Made by a program: the position numbers and the translations under genes
Shown: in pieces, positions 13,651-24,113 of the stretch
How positions within the stretch are numbered: the stretch's first letter is position 1
Layout of the letters: every line of letters begins with the position of its first letter
Notes under the pieces: model-generated
What the model was told of the DNA's origin: nothing
What the model saw: only the letters and a program-made list of their open reading frames with translations
Databases searched by the model: none
Source of the DNA: a virus
DNA length: 25,290 bases
Strand: one strand, 5' to 3'
IMG/VR virus record: IMGVR_UViG_3300047557_002118
Location: 1-25,290 of that record

Positions 13651-13678
13651 AGACGGGGAGTCCATGGACTCCCCGTCT
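13651..13678 (-). other. 28-bp perfect palindrome after the capsid gene
   Basis: AGACGGGGAGTCCA is followed by its exact complement, giving a GC-rich 14-bp arm hairpin 7 bases after the capsid stop. In the leftward transcript it is followed by AUUAGG rather than a U-run, so it is a poor intrinsic terminator. It probably protects the 3' end of abundant capsid mRNA or partly reduces read-through into the connector genes. It has no open reading frame of its own. Confidence 0.6.
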
Positions 13679-15174: not shown

Positions 15175-15687
15175 TTACGCCTCCTTGCCATTGGCAGAAA
15201 ATAACGCCAGCATGTTCGGGGTCGCAAGCGGTTTATCGTCTGCGCTCGAGTTGTGGACGTATCCAGCGCCAAACGCCGCGTAGTTCACTGGCACAAAAGA
15301 GGCGGCCAGTTTCTCAAGCACGTCGAGTGACATTTGATTGAGGGTCGCTTCGTCGAAGGGGTTTGCGGAATTCTGCATAACCTTCTGAATGGCGGCCTTT
15401 TTTGCGACATCCTGCTGGGAAGCCGCGTTCTGCACAATTGTGTTCAACTGTGCTTGCATTCCTGCCACGGCATCAGGGAGTTTCGAGAGGGTCTCAAGGG
15501 TTTGAGTAAAAGCAACGACGCCGCCAGCATTCCGCACAACTTCGTTGAGTTGTACCAAGCCTTCAAGAGTCTTGCCGTCACCATCACCAGTGAGGACCAA
15601 TGAAACAGAATCGCCGTCTTCCGAAGCGGTCTTGACGTTGAAGCCGAGACTATTCAGGAATGTTTGTAGTGCGGGGAAATTCTTCAT
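15175..15687 (-). CDS. Scaffold protein from in-frame internal start
   Basis: Within the fusion gene, codons for KEYL are also an ideal ribosome site: AAAGGAG, six bases, then ATG at 15687 in the same frame. This would produce a separate 170-residue protein, starting MKNFPALQTFLNSLG, equal to the C-terminal part of the fusion. It has a helical middle (DAVAGMQAQLNTIVQ) and a DEATLNQMSLDVLEKLAA helix near residue 120, fitting a capsid scaffold. The arrangement mirrors lambda C/Nu3, where a protease gene contains its scaffold as a nested start. Expected: abundant scaffold, few protease fusions. Evidence is the ribosome site, frame and gene order; expression is not shown. Confidence 0.72.
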   Translation of the reverse strand: MKNFPALQTFLNSLGFNVKTASEDGDSVSLVLTGDGDGKTLEGLVQLNEVVRNAGGVVAFTQTLETLSKLPDAVAGMQAQLNTIVQNAASQQDVAKKAAIQKVMQNSANPFDEATLNQMSLDVLEKLAASFVPVNYAAFGAGYVHNSSADDKPLATPNMLALFSANGKEA

Positions 15688-16935
15688 TAGGTACTCCTTT
15701 GTAAAATGGGTTGCTATATCAGCGAACCAGGCACGCGCCGGGTTCGCGAATTGCCGATTGAATTGGATGTTAAGTCGCTGTGAATTCATGGCTACGCCCT
15801 TGTAGCCGTCGAGGGTGGCAGGGATCACCACGTCATCATCTACAACCAGAGACACTTCTGAAAAGTTGATCTCCATAGGCTCGATGGATTCGATTGGCAT
15901 GGGTTCGCCTTTTTTGACGTAGCCTATTGTCATGTGTGGGACAAACGAGTGAGCAGAGTGATAAGGGACTCTCCTGTCGTCTAACTCGGAGCGCACGCGA
16001 TTGTAGAGGCTCTGCATTTCTGGACTGTCAAAAAGAGCGACAACTACATCGCTGTCTCCCTCTCCGACAAATCGGGCAAGGCCGGTCATTTTCCCTTTTA
16101 TGCCGGAGGTGCTGCCAGCCGATGAAAGTAAAGCCTTGACTACCTGCTCAGTATCAAGGGTGCGACTATCGCCAAGGTAGACAATCGTAATATGCAGGCC
16201 GTCGCGAGTCTTATCATCCATCAGGGGGTACGCCTTCTGGAGATCGGCGCGGAGCACGTCAGGGATCATAAGTGCGATCATGGACTTTTCGGCGCCGCCC
16301 GGCTTATCCTCTGCTTCGTTTTTTGAAATGGCTTTTGATGGGCACGCAGAGCAATTGCCGCAATTCTGCACAACAAATTCGGAGTTGCGATTTACACCAC
16401 ACCCGTCCATGAGAGAGCACGCGCCGCGATCTTTCGTGAGAATCGCAATATGGTCAGGGTGGATATTTTTGTGAATTCCAATGTAGTCAGTGCCCTTGAA
16501 TTTCCCGCTTTCAAACACCACACCGGGAGCGTAGTACCCCGTTGACACCTCGAGCGGCTGCCCACGGAGAATAAGGTCGTACATCTTCGCGCCATCTTCG
16601 TTGGCAATAAGCACATCTTTCTCAAGCCAGAACTCGCCAACCAAACGACGGCCCTGCTCGTCAATGCTCGCATTGTAAAATCTTCCAACAACCGGGACAT
16701 CAGGGTAGGTCACGCGAGCCGCACCAGAATTCTGCGATGGGTGATTCAGCACAACCGGGACATCGTTCCAGTCAAACGGGTACATACTAAACTCATCAAA
16801 GGGAACATAATACTGATTGAGCACACCTTCGACAACTGGCACACCGGGAACAACAATGTACGACTTGCCATTCCGGTTGACCTCGCGCACGGACTTGAAA
16901 TCAAAATTGAAATTGTGGGAAAATATTTGAAGCAT
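15175..16935 (-). CDS. Fusion: DUF2213-type head maturation protease + 2H phosphoesterase domain + scaffold
   Basis: A 586-residue protein from ATG 16935 (AGGA site); a longer frame to 17010 runs through the palindrome and is rejected. Residues 1-185 resemble DUF2213 phage proteins, treated as prohead-protease-like: LNHP with His65, LEVSTGY with Ser131, and the ending HIAIL...GACSLMDGCG (162-180). A Cys cluster CGNCSAC (192-198) follows. Residues about 218-395 form a 2H (LigT-like) phosphoesterase: HITIVYLG (His248, Thr250) and HMTIGYV (His334, Thr336), the two HxT motifs whose histidines do catalysis. Residues 417-586 are helical and scaffold-like. The protease should process scaffold during capsid assembly; the 2H part may cleave cyclic or 2'-5' phosphodiesters in RNA or signal nucleotides. 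The fusion is directly visible; substrate and activity are unknown. Confidence 0.85.
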   Translation of the reverse strand: MLQIFSHNFNFDFKSVREVNRNGKSYIVVPGVPVVEGVLNQYYVPFDEFSMYPFDWNDVPVVLNHPSQNSGAARVTYPDVPVVGRFYNASIDEQGRRLVGEFWLEKDVLIANEDGAKMYDLILRGQPLEVSTGYYAPGVVFESGKFKGTDYIGIHKNIHPDHIAILTKDRGACSLMDGCGVNRNSEFVVQNCGNCSACPSKAISKNEAEDKPGGAEKSMIALMIPDVLRADLQKAYPLMDDKTRDGLHITIVYLGDSRTLDTEQVVKALLSSAGSTSGIKGKMTGLARFVGEGDSDVVVALFDSPEMQSLYNRVRSELDDRRVPYHSAHSFVPHMTIGYVKKGEPMPIESIEPMEINFSEVSLVVDDDVVIPATLDGYKGVAMNSQRLNIQFNRQFANPARAWFADIATHFTKEYLMKNFPALQTFLNSLGFNVKTASEDGDSVSLVLTGDGDGKTLEGLVQLNEVVRNAGGVVAFTQTLETLSKLPDAVAGMQAQLNTIVQNAASQQDVAKKAAIQKVMQNSANPFDEATLNQMSLDVLEKLAASFVPVNYAAFGAGYVHNSSADDKPLATPNMLALFSANGKEA

Positions 16936-16957
16936 TTTCTTATTCCTGCGAGAAACA

Positions 16958-16995
16958 GAAAACGCCTTGAGCGCAATTGCGCTCAAGGCGTTTTC
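16958..16995. terminator. 38-bp perfect palindrome, bidirectional terminator candidate
   Basis: GAAAACGCCTTGAGCGCAA is followed exactly by its complement (19-base arms). The GC-rich stem ends in AAAA/TTTT on both sides, so each strand ends in a short U-run, the layout of a bidirectional intrinsic terminator. It sits between the GT87-like gene and the protease gene, 23 bases before the protease ATG. No clear promoter fits between it and the ATG, so late transcripts probably read through by antitermination, or it is a processing hairpin. Confidence 0.75.
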
Positions 16996-17052
16996 CACTT
17001 CGGCTGTCAAATCTAAGGAGAAAAAACAGGAGTAATCCGAATCGCCGCCAGT

Positions 17053-17880
17053 TTAGCAGGTTTTGCTTTTTTGTGCAAGTCCCATAATTGCAAATGCCCA
17101 TGTGTAGAGAGTCAGATAGGGAGTAACAAAAGGGATCGCCATGAGTGCCCAGCGCAACTCGCGACGCTTTACGCCAATGAACAGCAGGATCAACCCAACA
17201 GGGATTCCCCACGGCCACGGGGCAGAATTCCACCCCTTCCCTACAGCATCAGCCGATCCGAGGAACCATGCCCCATAGACCAGAGTCGTTACGATCATGA
17301 GGATCACGAATGGGGTCACGCTGCCTGCGACCTTTCGGACTCTTTCCGCTATCGGCTCGCTTGATGTCAGGTAGGTCGCCACCCAAAAGATAACAATGGG
17401 CATCCCGATCTGAGGCTTAATCATGAGGACCAGCACGCCCAGCCACGTCGGGAACAAGAGGCCAAGCGCGACAAGGCCGTCGATATTCCCAAGAACTGAA
17501 TTCATCAGCACACCGCCGAACACAACCAGCGGAAGGATGAAAACGATCCTGACTCCCGTCTTCAACGCCACCCACGTATAGGCTGCGATATTGGCTACAA
17601 AAATGATCGGGACAGAGAGACTCAGCGGGAGCTTTGCGATAGGGATCAGCGGGACCAGTAGCCAAGCAGGATTCCAGTACCCATCAACGCGATACGGGGA
17701 ATCCCCACTGGCAAGCGCCCGCGCCGCAGGCTCAAAGTATAGGCGCCAATCAGCGCCCAGCACATTCGAAGCAAGTTCTCCGCCGCTGAAAAGCGCATAC
17801 CTGACAGCCATGGCGATTGCAACCATGGAGATCAACGAGACAATCAAAGACACAAGTTCAACTACTTTTATCTTCATCAT
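17053..17880 (-). CDS. GT87-like multi-pass membrane protein (GT-C superfamily), accessory gene
   Basis: A 275-residue, very hydrophobic protein with about eight or nine predicted membrane helices, starting with one at residues 7-29. Residues about 45-85 match the first loop of GT87/DUF2029 polyprenol-phosphate-mannose transferases: ADWRLYF, then ARALASGDSPY and WNPAWLLVPLIPIAKLP; Asp in this loop is the expected catalytic base. A later LMIKPQIGMP segment also fits. It is shorter than usual family members (about 400 residues), so it may lack terminal helices or be inactive. Overlap with the ASCH gene makes start choice uncertain: ATG 17880 or TTG 17886, both behind AGAGGA. It sits inside a phage head module, so it is likely a moron acting on host envelope glycans or blocking superinfection (inference). 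Confidence 0.65.
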   Translation of the reverse strand: MMKIKVVELVSLIVSLISMVAIAMAVRYALFSGGELASNVLGADWRLYFEPAARALASGDSPYRVDGYWNPAWLLVPLIPIAKLPLSLSVPIIFVANIAAYTWVALKTGVRIVFILPLVVFGGVLMNSVLGNIDGLVALGLLFPTWLGVLVLMIKPQIGMPIVIFWVATYLTSSEPIAERVRKVAGSVTPFVILMIVTTLVYGAWFLGSADAVGKGWNSAPWPWGIPVGLILLFIGVKRRELRWALMAIPFVTPYLTLYTWAFAIMGLAQKSKTC

Positions 17881-18154
17881 CGGCAATCCATTCCTCTGTC
17901 ACGTCAATTGCATACACCTCGGTTGGTACGTTTCCGAAGTGGGGATGCGTAATGACTTCTTTTTTTACGCCTTTCCACCTTCTGAGCATAAACCTACCTG
18001 CCTGAAACCCTCGCCACAAAACAACCTTTTCGTACTGCCGATTTTCTAGTTTACTTACCCAGTGCAGTCCGCGATACTCGAACTTCTTTTCTCCGCGCTC
18101 GATGGCGTCGTAGTATTCATATTTTAGATGCAAAACAAGGTTACTAGAAGCCAT
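17858..18154 (-). CDS. ASCH/PUA-like domain protein
   Basis: A 98-residue protein. LHLKYEYYDAIERGEKKFEYRG (the Leu-x-Leu strand, Ile-x-x-Gly-Glu-Lys-Lys helix and Glu-Tyr-Arg) is the hallmark start of ASCH-domain proteins of the PUA-like superfamily; a later VVLWRGF strand and VYAIDVTEEW also fit. The fold binds RNA or modified nucleotides; one branch (YqfB) is an N4-acetylcytidine amidohydrolase. Which activity applies here is unknown. A modest AAGG site precedes ATG 18154, which directly follows the TAA of the preceding small gene. It is cotranscribed with the GT87-like gene, overlapping it by 23 bases. Phages often carry ASCH genes as accessory functions. Confidence 0.72.
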   Translation of the reverse strand: MASSNLVLHLKYEYYDAIERGEKKFEYRGLHWVSKLENRQYEKVVLWRGFQAGRFMLRRWKGVKKEVITHPHFGNVPTEVYAIDVTEEWIADDEDKSS

Positions 18155-18397
18155 TTATTCAAACCTTTGAGAGACTATATCGTCAGCACCATAAGCGGTC
18201 TCAGCGCGAAATACAACCCGCTGAGACGCTTGAGCGAATGCGATCAGGTGGTGAAGCCTCAGTCGGTGCAATACGCCACGACGACGAATCTCAATGGTCA
18301 TCGTGGATGTATCCAGAGTCATCAAGAGCGATCCATCCATCCCGCGAACCTGCACGACTCTTCCCTCCGAATCTGTCTCTGGCTCAAACACTGTCAT
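18155..18397 (-). CDS. Small hypothetical protein of the accessory insertion
   Basis: An 80-residue protein starting MTVFEPETDSEGRVVQVRG, with alternating beta-type segments (LLMTLDTSTMTIEIRRRG) and then a helix ending in a basic, His-rich stretch. The ATG at 18397 overlaps the MuF-like stop as ATGA and is served by GGAG 6 bases upstream; an ATG at 18409 lacks a good site. A compact beta-sheet protein of this type could be a small binding or accessory protein, but no family is recognised. It links the MuF gene with ASCH, whose ATG starts immediately after its TAA. Confidence 0.55.
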   Translation of the reverse strand: MTVFEPETDSEGRVVQVRGMDGSLLMTLDTSTMTIEIRRRGVLHRLRLHHLIAFAQASQRVVFRAETAYGADDIVSQRFE

Positions 18398-19209
18398 TTT
18401 CCACTCCATTTCCGCGTTTCAATTTGACACAGGCAATTCGCCCTGCACGTCGCACCACCAAGCGGGACGATGTGATTTATCGGCATCCATCCAAGGTCCG
18501 CCAATTCTATACAGCCTGGCGTTTCTGCGGAGTCGGTGCAATGGTTTTCGTTCTCGCCAAGTACACGCCGCGCTTGATCGTGACCCATCGCGATCCCTCG
18601 TTGCAGTTTCACGTTTTGATAAAAGGCGTTTCCGTACCATCCATACGACCCAGCGCGTGACACAGCGGTCCCATCAAGGGCCTGCGCACCTGTGTCGAGT
18701 TGTCTTGCAAACTCTTCGAAGCGCCTAAACTGCATGAGCACAAAGATATAAAACAAATCTCTCCATGACTGATCGTCAAACAGAAATCCGCCAAGCCACA
18801 AAAGCCAGATGGTTGCGTAAAGGGCTTTCAGGATGTTCCGCGACCGCTCATACCAAACCACGAACATGATCGTTCCTGCGATGAGTTGCCTTGTTTCATT
18901 GCGCAGGCGCTCACGCGCATTTGCAGAGACACGCATTACCGAACGCCTCAATACATCCCCTGAGACTGCACGACCATTGGGATCGCGATAAACACCGGTA
19001 GCAGGATCGAAGGTGTAATCCTTCTCTCCCTTCGGTAGACTCCTGCTTACGCTGCCAGCAGGCCGAGCCGTCAGCAATCCGCGCATGGAAGTAGAGGAAT
19101 TCCACATCTCCTTCGCAAGTTCGACATCGTTGCTGTCTATGTCTGATATAAAACTCCGCACTTCGCCATCAGTGGGAAACGTGAAGGACTGCCAATTACT
19201 AGGTCGCAT
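18394..19209 (-). CDS. MuF-like phage head morphogenesis protein
   Basis: A 271-residue protein directly downstream of portal, the usual site of the MuF-like minor head protein. Its C-terminus has the expected Cys/His pattern: HCTDSAETPGC, INHIVPLGGATC and ANCLCQI, typical of the MuF C-terminal region. Unusual for the family, residues about 105-180 contain two strongly hydrophobic helices (LIAGTIMFVVWY and ALYATIWLLWLGGFLF), suggesting membrane or portal contact. AAAGGA lies 5 bases before ATG 19209. MuF proteins enter the virion at low copy number and help portal-capsid assembly or are ejected. Start, neighbours and motif all agree; the role of the hydrophobic part is unknown. Confidence 0.75.
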   Translation of the reverse strand: MRPSNWQSFTFPTDGEVRSFISDIDSNDVELAKEMWNSSTSMRGLLTARPAGSVSRSLPKGEKDYTFDPATGVYRDPNGRAVSGDVLRRSVMRVSANARERLRNETRQLIAGTIMFVVWYERSRNILKALYATIWLLWLGGFLFDDQSWRDLFYIFVLMQFRRFEEFARQLDTGAQALDGTAVSRAGSYGWYGNAFYQNVKLQRGIAMGHDQARRVLGENENHCTDSAETPGCIELADLGWMPINHIVPLGGATCRANCLCQIETRKWSGK

Positions 19210-19217
19210 TTTTTCCT

Positions 19218-20693
19218 TTACGCCGGAATAGACTGTTGCGTCTGTTCAGATTTCAAGCCATACTCAGCGGCCGCATCGGTGCCTTCCGTTGCCTGGTCCA
19301 CAGGTAAAGCCTCACCCTTCTTCTCTTCAATAACCGCCTCGTTGACGGTAACTTTGTACTTAAAGTTTTTGCGCAGGAAGTCAGCAATGTCGATGTATCC
19401 CTCCGGGACATTCCCGGTGATCGAAAGGATGGTCTTAGACTCTGTCTCGGCAAGGTTGGCTTTTTCAATTGTGGTCAACTGGAATAACTCGGGCCATTCA
19501 AGAGATATTTTTCCGGTAGGCTTTGGGATAATCTGCAAATCAACCAAGCGCATTGCAAAGTCCTTTACCCATCGGGTACATGTTTTCTTCTGGCGGGCCT
19601 CAACAACACTTGCCCAATTTGCGTCGTCAGACGATGACGCAAGTTCCCCACGCTCAGAGCCAACCAGTACACGCTGGGGCATCCTGGCGGTCCCTGCAAT
19701 GTCGGTGATAAGCAGGTCATGTTGCTGGCGTCCATCGACAACTTGCCCGCCAAGATCGTCCACGGTCACACCTTTGACGCGCATAGTACGACGGAGTCCA
19801 TGCTCCCACTCGTCAATCTCAGAAACCATATCGTTGTACTCGGGAGTTCCCTTTACTGGAAAGTTCGTGCCTTCTTGAGCACTGAGGATAAGACCTTTAC
19901 GGATCAGCATCCAAAACGCCTCACTGGACGAACCGACAACCTTCTCGAGGTCAGACAGCAGATTGTACGGCCTGCGCAGACGAGGGATTCCGTATATCCG
20001 AGACCTTCCGTATCCATCCTTCAAATGCACAACCCGACTCCAGTGTACGTTGATCGACTGCCCACCATCCTCGAGTTTGATCGTGTACGTCTCGGCCATT
20101 CCATAGCGAGGGCTGTTTGTGTTGCGATCAAATGTTGCAATCGGGGCCTGCCCCTCGTCGAAGACCTGAACATAAGCGATCTTGCCAGCATTCGCCCAAT
20201 TACCCTTGTTGTCAATAAGGGGGTCGGAAAACTCACCGGGGACCCCAAGAAGTATCACAGAGTAACGAGAAAACCCGAGGGCTATATCAGCCTCATTCAT
20301 GGCAGGCCAAATCTCAAGGTCATCAGCCAGGCGATTCCACGAGGATAGAAATTCGGTGTGCTGACTTGAGTTCTCGTCATCACCAAGGATACCCCCGTCT
20401 TTCATGATGGGTGGATTGCGCCAACTCTCATCAGCCAGAGAATCCACAAGCGCACCCGCGAGGCCATTTCGGTCGTACATATCAAACATGTCATTGTAGA
20501 CAAGATTTTTTTTCCATCCAAAAACATCGTAGTGATCTCGTGCGCCACCATGGGTTTGCCCCAGCGTACTTGCAAGCGCAGCCCTTGAGACAAGACCCGT
20601 GACGTTCTTGTACAAAGTTATAATTTCCTTTTTTGTCATGCGGGGGGATGGAACTGGAATTCTCAGGTATTTCAGATCATTTGCTTTAGCCAT
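19218..20693 (-). CDS. Portal protein
   Basis: A 491-residue protein after large terminase, forming the dodecameric DNA entry ring at one capsid vertex. The start at 20693 has GGAG 8 bases upstream; the longer frame overlapping terminase is rejected. It contains an N-terminal HYDVFGWKKN segment, a long stem-region helix stretch (DLEKVVGSSSEAFWMLIRKG), QQHDLLITDIAGTARMPQRVL, and SSSDDANWASVVEARQ, as in phage portals of the DUF1073 type. The last 60 residues are acidic and probably flexible. Spacing to the MuF gene is 8 bases. The order terL-portal-MuF makes this call firm, although the exact family is by pattern. Confidence 0.85.
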   Translation of the reverse strand: MAKANDLKYLRIPVPSPRMTKKEIITLYKNVTGLVSRAALASTLGQTHGGARDHYDVFGWKKNLVYNDMFDMYDRNGLAGALVDSLADESWRNPPIMKDGGILGDDENSSQHTEFLSSWNRLADDLEIWPAMNEADIALGFSRYSVILLGVPGEFSDPLIDNKGNWANAGKIAYVQVFDEGQAPIATFDRNTNSPRYGMAETYTIKLEDGGQSINVHWSRVVHLKDGYGRSRIYGIPRLRRPYNLLSDLEKVVGSSSEAFWMLIRKGLILSAQEGTNFPVKGTPEYNDMVSEIDEWEHGLRRTMRVKGVTVDDLGGQVVDGRQQHDLLITDIAGTARMPQRVLVGSERGELASSSDDANWASVVEARQKKTCTRWVKDFAMRLVDLQIIPKPTGKISLEWPELFQLTTIEKANLAETESKTILSITGNVPEGYIDIADFLRKNFKYKVTVNEAVIEEKKGEALPVDQATEGTDAAAEYGLKSEQTQQSIPA

Positions 20694-20697
20694 ATTT

Positions 20698-22284
20698 TTA
20701 TCTCCATGTGCCAGCACTTGCAGGCAGGGGCGCAAATGTCAGCATAAGACTCTCTGCACGATCAGGAGACCTACCTAGCAACTCCTTCATCGTGTCCTTG
20801 TCACTCACACGTATTCTACCACCTCGGATGAAGTAGGATGGCGCAGCCAATTCCTCAAGCAGATCATCATCAGGTGGGAGCATGGCCCCGGGGTCATCAC
20901 GTAGCCACACCATCACGCTCCACCACAATTGATCGCGCATCTGAAAAAACTCACCCATCTTCTCGTCAGGCGCAGCCATGGGCGCATACGTTGGTGAAGA
21001 CGCAACCATGACCCCTGTTGCACGACTCGCGCCAAGCCTTACCATGCGGGGGGCAACGCCCGCACCGACTCCTGTCCCATCAGTGAATATATAAATATCA
21101 TTCATGGGCAATCCAAGTTGCTTGAGAATTCCAAACCCTTTGATCGCCGTAGCGTCAGGGTCGATGCCGGACCAACCTTGCTGGCGTGGCACCCAGCCCC
21201 CATACCTCAAGGTCAACTGATTGGTGTCTCTGCCCATGTCGGCAATATCCAGACCTACAATTGGGCGTACATTGTGAGGCGGATTCTCTCCATACTTTGC
21301 GACATAGGTCAACCATCGACTGACGGCATTATCAAGCCAAACACGAGAAATCAATTGCGTCTCAGATCGCGGTGGGTAAATCCCTAGCACCATGTAAAAA
21401 AACGCTGGGTTGGTAACTCTTCTATGACCAGCAGGGAGCGGAGGATACTCAACATTCCCCATACTTCGAGCAACACTGCCCACAAGGAAATCAGGAACCT
21501 CAAAGCACTCCACATCGACCGTTTCATGGGGGGCAAGCGGGCGCGTCCATTCATTGATACGCCTGACAGTTTTTTCTCTGGATACCGCTCCAGAGATAAC
21601 ATCCTCACCAGTGGAAACATTGGGATGATCGAATGCGGACAAATGAATAACATTCCCCTCCCGCCGCTTCACCATGCCCGAAACAGTACCCACGTCGGCG
21701 CGGGGATTGAACATGATGAGCATACGAGTCATACCGCCGGACATGCAGGACTCTATACCCTTGAATACTTCTTGCGGAACCGCGTCGGCTTCATCGACAA
21801 TAAAAAGCATGTGGGGGGCGTGCTTGCCTGAGAACTTCGCCTCTCTCTGTTCTGGCGTTCCGGCCATAGGGATTGAAACACCAGTAATGAATGACTGCGG
21901 GCTACGTTGGATATTCATACCGCTGGACACATCACTACCGGGGAGGAGGTCCTGCCTCTTTCTGGTAAGCGAGCCAATTTCGCCCCACAGAATTTTTCTT
22001 AAGTTTCTTTCAGGGGGAGCAGCCGTCGTGTACACCTGGGCGTCCGGGTAGCACAAATAAAACCAGAGGGCGATACGCGCAGCAGCATGACTCTTTCCAG
22101 TTGCATTGGCCGAGACCGCAATAGTCACAGGGTTGTCGCGAACAGAATTCATAACTGTTTTGATTGGGTCCGTGTATCTTTCACCAAGGACCTCCGTACC
22201 AAAACGGACAGGGTTTTCGGCGTATTGCGAGAAATCAACAACTCCGGTCTGAGCAACCATCCCACTTTTGGAACTCTCACCCAT
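20698..22284 (-). CDS. terL: Terminase large subunit
   Basis: A 528-residue packaging motor and nuclease. ATG 22284 with AAGGA 6 bases upstream is chosen; frames reaching 22422 overlap the TerS gene without a ribosome site. Walker A is SANATGKS (58-65) and Walker B is MLFIVDEAD (159-167). A coupling segment (MLIMFNPRAD) follows. The C-terminal RNaseH-like nuclease half starts near residue 345 with GLDIADMGRDTN, then TDGTGVGAGV and a late conserved Asp region. It pumps DNA into the procapsid with ATP and cuts concatemers. The usual order TerS-TerL-portal is kept, with 19 bases to TerS and 4 bases to portal. Confidence 0.95.
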   Translation of the reverse strand: MGESSKSGMVAQTGVVDFSQYAENPVRFGTEVLGERYTDPIKTVMNSVRDNPVTIAVSANATGKSHAAARIALWFYLCYPDAQVYTTAAPPERNLRKILWGEIGSLTRKRQDLLPGSDVSSGMNIQRSPQSFITGVSIPMAGTPEQREAKFSGKHAPHMLFIVDEADAVPQEVFKGIESCMSGGMTRMLIMFNPRADVGTVSGMVKRREGNVIHLSAFDHPNVSTGEDVISGAVSREKTVRRINEWTRPLAPHETVDVECFEVPDFLVGSVARSMGNVEYPPLPAGHRRVTNPAFFYMVLGIYPPRSETQLISRVWLDNAVSRWLTYVAKYGENPPHNVRPIVGLDIADMGRDTNQLTLRYGGWVPRQQGWSGIDPDATAIKGFGILKQLGLPMNDIYIFTDGTGVGAGVAPRMVRLGASRATGVMVASSPTYAPMAAPDEKMGEFFQMRDQLWWSVMVWLRDDPGAMLPPDDDLLEELAAPSYFIRGGRIRVSDKDTMKELLGRSPDRAESLMLTFAPLPASAGTWR

Positions 22285-23270: not shown

Positions 23271-23372
23271 TTGACACTTTGCAGAGTTATATAACCAGAC
23301 TGCGGGGTGATGCGGTATATAACGTATAATGATAAAATTGGATGTTGCAAAGCAACAGAAACGGAGGCACTA
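23271..23372 (+). promoter_or_regulatory. Rightward promoter/operator region before the PAPS-reductase-like gene
   Basis: A perfect TTGACA lies at 23271-23276, but the nearest -10-like TATAAC (23290-23295) is only 13 bases away. A perfect TATAAT (23325-23330) has no -35 at normal distance. Two TATATAAC copies (23288-23295, 23316-23323) lie 28 bases apart and could be regulator sites. A small TGTTGC/GCAACA hairpin (23343-23357) precedes the ribosome site. A phage activator or repressor may act here; promoter call is weak. Confidence 0.4.
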
Positions 23373-24113
23373 ATGCACTTTCCAAACTCAAAGGCGCTAC
23401 TTGAATACATGAGCGCCAAATCCGACACCGTGATCCTTTCCTTCTCCAACGGGAAAGACTCGCTGGTGGCGTGGCTGGTATTGCGGAAATATTTCAAGAA
23501 GGTCATTCCGTTTTACCTATATGCTGTACCTGGGCTTGAGTTTATTGAGCAGGGCTTGAGCTACTACGAGGATTTTTTCAAGACTAAAATCCTGCGGTAC
23601 CCTCACCCATCCTTTTACAGGATGCTCAATAACCACGTATTCCAATCCCCGGAGAACTGCCTGCCTGTTGAAATGGCTGGACTCCCGGACTACGATTACG
23701 ATCACGTCCACAACATCATACATGAAGACTTTGACCTTCCTGATACCGTGTGGGTTGGCACCGGCATAACCGTATCAGACAGCATGACTCGCCGCGTTGC
23801 GCTCAAGCGCAATGGCCCCTTGAATGTCCACCGTAAAACATTCTTCCCCATCTTCGACTACAAAAGGGTTGACTTGGTGCGCGAGATCACAGAGGCAAAG
23901 GTCCGCCTTCCTGTGGATTACCGCGTTTTCGGAAGATCGTTTGACGGCATTCATATCCAGTACAGCGAACCCATGAAAAAGCATTTCCCTCGGGACTACA
24001 AGCGCCTTAAGGAATTCTTTGGCATGATCGAAATAGACATTCTTCGAATGAGATTCAGAGAGGACTACTACAATGGCACCGAAACAAGCGACGAAAATTA
24101 CACCTGCGCATGA
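23373..24113 (+). CDS. PP-loop ATPase, PAPS-reductase/adenine-nucleotide alpha-hydrolase family
   Basis: A 246-residue protein. ATG 23373 follows a near-perfect GGAGG six bases upstream; the longer frame from 23307 crosses the TATAAT and is rejected. The PP-loop SFSNGKDSLVAW (23-34) is the ATP-pyrophosphatase signature of PAPS reductase, ATP sulfurylase and DndC-like enzymes. Later segments TVWVGTGITVSDSMTRR, FFPIFDYKRVDLVREI and LPVDYRVFGRSFDG are in the usual order for the phage-borne branch. Cys residues are scarce, with no C-terminal ECGLH redox motif, so sulfate reduction is unlikely; nucleotide or tRNA/DNA modification is likelier. It heads a rightward operon and overlaps its follower by 41 bases. 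Confidence 0.8.
   Translation: MHFPNSKALLEYMSAKSDTVILSFSNGKDSLVAWLVLRKYFKKVIPFYLYAVPGLEFIEQGLSYYEDFFKTKILRYPHPSFYRMLNNHVFQSPENCLPVEMAGLPDYDYDHVHNIIHEDFDLPDTVWVGTGITVSDSMTRRVALKRNGPLNVHRKTFFPIFDYKRVDLVREITEAKVRLPVDYRVFGRSFDGIHIQYSEPMKKHFPRDYKRLKEFFGMIEIDILRMRFREDYYNGTETSDENYTCA

Follow-up and report, generated by a model that had tools for sequence, protein, structure and literature searches.

A GT87-like GT-C transferase homologue carried in the head module of a phage that probably infects Anaerolineae

The window is a 25,290-nucleotide stretch of viral DNA, and its head genes are found on the minus strand. They run in the order terminase, portal (19218-20735; PF06381, 3.7e-28), MuF-like (18394-19209; phrog_24776), an 84-aa gene (18155..18409), a 98-aa gene (17858..18154), the GT-like gene that is the subject of this study (17053..17880), a DUF2213-type prohead protease with an internal 2H phosphoesterase domain (15175..17010) and the capsid protein. 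A previous sequence-only reading placed the GT-like gene between MuF and protease genes, and the neighbours are as it stated; the end coordinate it gave, 17880, is the ATG start of this minus-strand gene. The 84-aa gene is kept in the relatives L080 and L084 and forms one border of a variable slot, with the protease as the other border. The 98-aa product belongs to phrog_625 and has a weak DUF3850 match. The 3' end of its gene overlaps the start of the GT-like gene by ~20 nt, which suggests translational coupling, and it is possibly part of the same cargo. The best GenBank phage matches of the portal include haloarchaeal viruses (Hardycor1, 32%, 3e-53) and Brevundimonas phages.

Several other elements were seen in and around the head module. 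A perfect 19+19-nt palindrome (16958..16995, assigned to no strand) separates the GT-like gene from the probable protease start. A T-rich tail follows it on the minus strand, making it a candidate terminator; the promoter/terminator scan scored only a short inner version of it and not a full-length terminator. L084 also has a hairpin at its protease start, so the palindrome need not mark an insertion edge. The scan gave no promoter-like site just upstream of the GT-like gene, with overall promoter counts not above those of shuffled sequences. A second perfect palindrome (14+14 nt, 13651-13678) sits just after the capsid gene, a place where L081, L084, L086 and L088 have similar hairpins; it is probably a conserved terminator or attenuator. 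Residues 256-392 of the protease reading frame form the 2H phosphoesterase domain (PF13563, 8e-10), with both HxT motifs and a weak Acb1 match (1.2e-4). This domain is fused to the protease in L080 too and is at the end of the portal reading frame in L084, while the other relatives tested gave no match at 1e-3. It is possibly a mobile anti-CBASS-like or RNA-repair domain. On the strand opposite to the head genes, positions 23307-24113 (+) encode a PAPS-reductase-like moron (phrog_2302, 3.1e-20).

The minus-strand frame of the GT-like gene (17886..17053) has 277 open codons and a TTG start. The likelier start is the ATG at 17880 (or 17877), with GAGGA ~10 nt ahead of the ATG, which gives a protein of 275 aa. 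Residue numbers used here count from the TTG at 17886. In 100 Markov-1 randomisations of the window, the longest reading frame averaged 197 aa and reached a maximum of 396. The length of the frame is thus only mildly unusual in 25 kb and is not significant by itself, so the case for the gene rests on homology and conservation. The sequence-only reading had described a multi-pass protein with the motifs ADWRLYF, DSPY and WNPAW, and all three are present in the frame.

As a single sequence, the protein had no matches in Pfam, PHROGs, NCBIfam, PDB sequences, GenBank phages, plasmids or IMG/VR. Relatives were found by scanning IMG/VR with a degenerate DNA motif built on GNID-x20-KPQ. Two of the 14 stretches returned were true relatives, L005 (34%, E 4e-26) and L007 (30%, E 6e-18). 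In a second, tighter DNA scan, four out of four were true, adding two more viral contigs (L119/L121 and L120/L122). The family is therefore carried by five viral contigs, the window included. A search of GTDB with a three-row alignment found two genomes, both Anaerolineae. With a profile built from five sequences, 36 of the 298 Anaerolineae genomes sampled were positive; a seven-sequence profile, used at a stricter cut-off, detected the family in 10 of 301 sampled Chloroflexota genomes. Identity between the window protein and its nearer relatives is ~28-34% over more than 220 residues, with pairwise E-values down to 1e-43. Tandem copies were present in two Anaerolineae genomes (L047:1471-3343 and L024:604-2340). 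An open-literature search returned no paper on phage-encoded GT87 or DUF2029 proteins, a result that does not prove that there is none.

Across 29 family members, P82, P87, K157, P158 and G231 are invariant, and D46, Y65, Q159, W207, P225 and P256 are nearly so. Members are mostly 275-320 aa long, so the short length of the window protein is the norm for its family.

The relationship to GT87 was examined with profiles. The window protein has no match to PF09594 (GT87), for which the Pfam gathering cut-off is 25 bits. Nine of the 29 family members do match it at E <= 0.1 (best 8e-7), and two chromosomal relatives passed the cut-off in the genome search. When the family was compared by hhalign with nine aligned GT87 proteins taken from the same genomes, the two matched over 165 columns (98.3%, E 2.5e-14). 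The same nine-protein profile matches PimE (9dm5), a polyprenyl-P-mannose-dependent mannosyltransferase, at 5.5e-19, with PimE G162-Q163 and K195 in register. Among PDB sequence profiles, the best match of the family was GPI mannosyltransferase 1, or PIG-M (9wno; E 7e-6, positions 22-219).

Structure prediction, which the sequence-only reading had proposed as a check on its GT87-like assignment, gave a GT-C fold. The AlphaFold model made from seven sequences (pLDDT 83.3, pTM 0.79) aligned with PimE at a VIA-align Z of 17.1, covering 256 of 277 residues with an rmsd of 4.2 A. PIG-M followed at Z 15.7 and PIG-U, a GT-C fold protein that is not known to be catalytic, at Z 15. Further matches included ALG3, PMT, PglB, ArnT and AftB, among others. 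The 23 chains with Z >= 7.6 are GT-C without exception, after which the list drops to Z 3.6. The top Foldseek match was again PIG-M (probability 1.00, E 1.2e-3). No Foldseek E-value was below 0.001, and the structural claim rests on the probability of 1.00, the VIA-align Z scores and the consistency of the hit list. An earlier five-sequence model had the same top matches with lower scores, and BFVD gave no significant structural match.

Sequence profile and predicted structure both identify the window protein as a GT-C, GT87-like transferase homologue. The label GT87-like suits it better than GT87 member, since it fails the curated cut-off and alters part of the PimE donor site. It shares with PimE the predicted fold, over nearly its whole length, the order of elements, an Asp that opens the first juxtamembrane helix and a Lys ~23-32 residues after the G[NQ] motif. 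The two differ in length (275 aa compared to ~400), and the model stops at about PimE residue 348. With PIG-M, the window protein shares the first-loop elements D-Y/W, SPY and (N)xSxW. However, PIG-M is eukaryotic, has a longer C-terminal part and carries two Asp residues in a DID where the window protein has AD.

The sequence-only reading had also suggested a search for the GT-C catalytic Asp, and a candidate was found in D46, which stands in place of PimE D58 and aligns with the second D of D-I-D in PIG-M; Asp occupies this column in 28 of the 29 members. Since PimE G162-Q163 and K195 are in register in the profile alignment, N134 takes the position of Q163, K157 that of K195 and N72 that of Y92. 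The donor-site residues Y92 and Q163 are therefore both Asn in the window protein, as they are in most of the family. The PimE His pair is not kept according to the same sequence-profile mapping, in which H322 was also compared and the position of W319 is uncertain. PimE is inactive with any of the substitutions D58A, Y92A, Q163A and K195A, and is only less active with H321A or H322A (PMC12041525). Judged from the alignments, the window protein appears to retain the catalytic base (D46) and the phosphate-binding Lys (K157).

The C-terminus is the other region where the protein departs from its family. Both the window protein and its counterpart in L121 (G316) are without the family's last helix, and these two form a well-supported pair in the tree (96/93). 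G316 belongs to a phage with a different portal and terminase. A truncation common to the window protein and its closest relative in an unrelated phage argues against decay, and the short form is most simply explained as an inherited feature of a phage lineage rather than a broken gene. No other grouping of phage copies in the tree is well supported, and the tree speaks neither for nor against one phage origin for the whole family.

These differences bear on whether the protein is an enzyme at all. A non-catalytic GT-C pseudo-enzyme could bind polyprenyl-phosphate carriers or an envelope protein, for example sequestering carriers or blocking a receptor, and the sequence-only reading had allowed for a non-catalytic membrane effector. 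The loss of the PimE-equivalent Tyr, Gln and His residues, the shortened form common to the window and L121 and the fold match to PIG-U all fit this explanation. It is weakened, and in our view unlikely, because the window protein and nearly all of the 29 members retain both D46 and K157, even with other pocket residues differing. Most of the Asn substitutions are also family-wide, occurring in chromosomal members too, some of which adjoin glycan genes.

The short GT87-like proteins on Anaerolineae chromosomes are direct homologues with the same motifs. They differ in keeping the last helix that the window and L121 proteins are without, in having His in several cases at window Tyr261, and in lying beside housekeeping or glycan genes. 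The relatives in L019 and L054 adjoin GT87 genes and methionine synthase, the one in G128 adjoins a GT2 gene matching the GtrB family (phrog_841, 1.7e-32), and others adjoin genes that were read by eye as GT-C-like. These chromosomal neighbours support a role in lipid-carrier-dependent glycosylation. They also favour a host source for the phage copies, without proving in which direction the gene moved. One Anaerolineae genome contig has a related capsid gene (E 4e-72) and may itself be a binned phage contig. From this contig and the distribution of the family, both indirect indications, the phage hosts are probably Anaerolineae (Chloroflexota).

A search with an alignment of the major capsid protein found 15 related viral loci. 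In the closest relatives, L078 and L079 (TerL 73%, MCP 69%), only a 69-aa gene separates MuF from the protease, and the GT-like gene is absent. It is absent from the slot in L081 and L084 as well, and G002 has reversed small genes there. Because the contents of the slot vary among relatives, the MuF-protease interval is best described as a cargo slot and the GT-like gene as an accessory gene within it. In L080 (1755-7188) the slot holds ~5.5 kb of cargo, including DUF5131 and a tyrosine recombinase, and marks an insertion hot spot inside the head module.

Among these 15 records, only G002, which came up in the family and the capsid searches alike, has the family; the other 14, some of them fragments, lack it. 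G002 has capsid, portal, protease, tape measure and tail genes in common with the window. Its homologue comes after the tail genes, and beyond it lie genes for an FkbM methyltransferase, a serine recombinase and an HTH regulator, in that order. The homologue in G316 is upstream of a GH25 lysin, and the one in G317 comes after a D12-class adenine methyltransferase. The sequence-only reading had made its case depend on related phage genes at this locus. Such genes exist in other viral contigs, but as cargo at scattered positions and not at one conserved locus.

This sporadic presence, the scattered positions and the host-type family would also fit an active transferase that is only a passenger, bringing the phage little benefit or acting on lipid or glycan targets irrelevant to infection. 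We regard this as quite unlikely, since the frame is intact and the motifs are kept at ~34% identity, the gene is carried repeatedly (five viral records with different portal or tail modules), and a supported phage pair has a common truncation. That a bacterial gene or host fragment was misjoined into the phage contig during assembly is very improbable: the closest phage relatives do have a slot without the gene, but its start overlaps the upstream phrog_625 gene, the flanking genes are uninterrupted, the sequence nearest to it in the tree comes from another viral contig, and other relatives have variable cargo in the slot.

The explanation that we favour, with moderate confidence, is that the gene encodes a compact GT87-type GT-C transferase, derived from Anaerolineae and carried as solo cargo, which moves a sugar from a host carrier onto the host surface to the benefit of the phage. 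The family, predicted fold, key residues, cargo position and absence of GT2 and GtrA in five records are computed results, from which we infer activity, donor, acceptor, timing and benefit. The host would make and flip the donor, a polyprenyl-monophosphate sugar, and K157 and the pocket Asn residues would bind its phosphate. D46, in the first extracytoplasmic loop, would deprotonate the acceptor hydroxyl, and the sugar would pass to a host surface acceptor outside the membrane. No GT2 (PF00535) or GtrA (PF04138) was found in the window or in the four other records, which are possibly fragments, while control genomes were positive; the phage copies would thus act alone on host-made polyprenyl-P-sugars.

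The position in the head operon and the lack of a promoter-like site just upstream suggest late expression. The simplest benefit would then be an altered surface that keeps progeny from being lost to re-adsorption and excludes competitors. The G002 copy, beside a recombinase and a regulator, suggests lysogenic conversion instead. Several points count against the favoured explanation. The window protein is under every family cut-off, PimE Y92 and Q163 are replaced by Asn, the His pair is lost, the family's last helix is missing, PIG-U matches nearly as well, and a classical lysogenic-conversion gene would not usually lie in a head operon.

Most of what is known about phages modifying the host surface comes from the O-antigen systems of enterobacteria and Pseudomonas. 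The window protein resembles GtrC of the phage GtrABC systems in being a phage-borne multi-pass transferase expected to use a polyprenyl-P-sugar on the host surface. The logic is similar to that of GtrABC serotype conversion (PMC11436027), but no GtrA or GtrB was found in the five phage records, and the hosts here are probably Anaerolineae rather than O-antigen-bearing enterobacteria. Tentatively, and with more doubt than confidence, these proteins could represent a recurrent phage family of miniature, solo, near-core GT-C transferases that remodel the Chloroflexota surface with host polyprenyl-P-sugars, outside the Gtr/O-antigen world. The finding points to an equivalent surface modification in phages that probably infect a poorly cultured phylum, by a very small GT-C enzyme that goes unrecognised in phages with current family libraries. 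Being compact, the protein may be a useful construct for studying the minimal GT-C core, and it would give a handle on what phages recognise on Anaerolineae surfaces.
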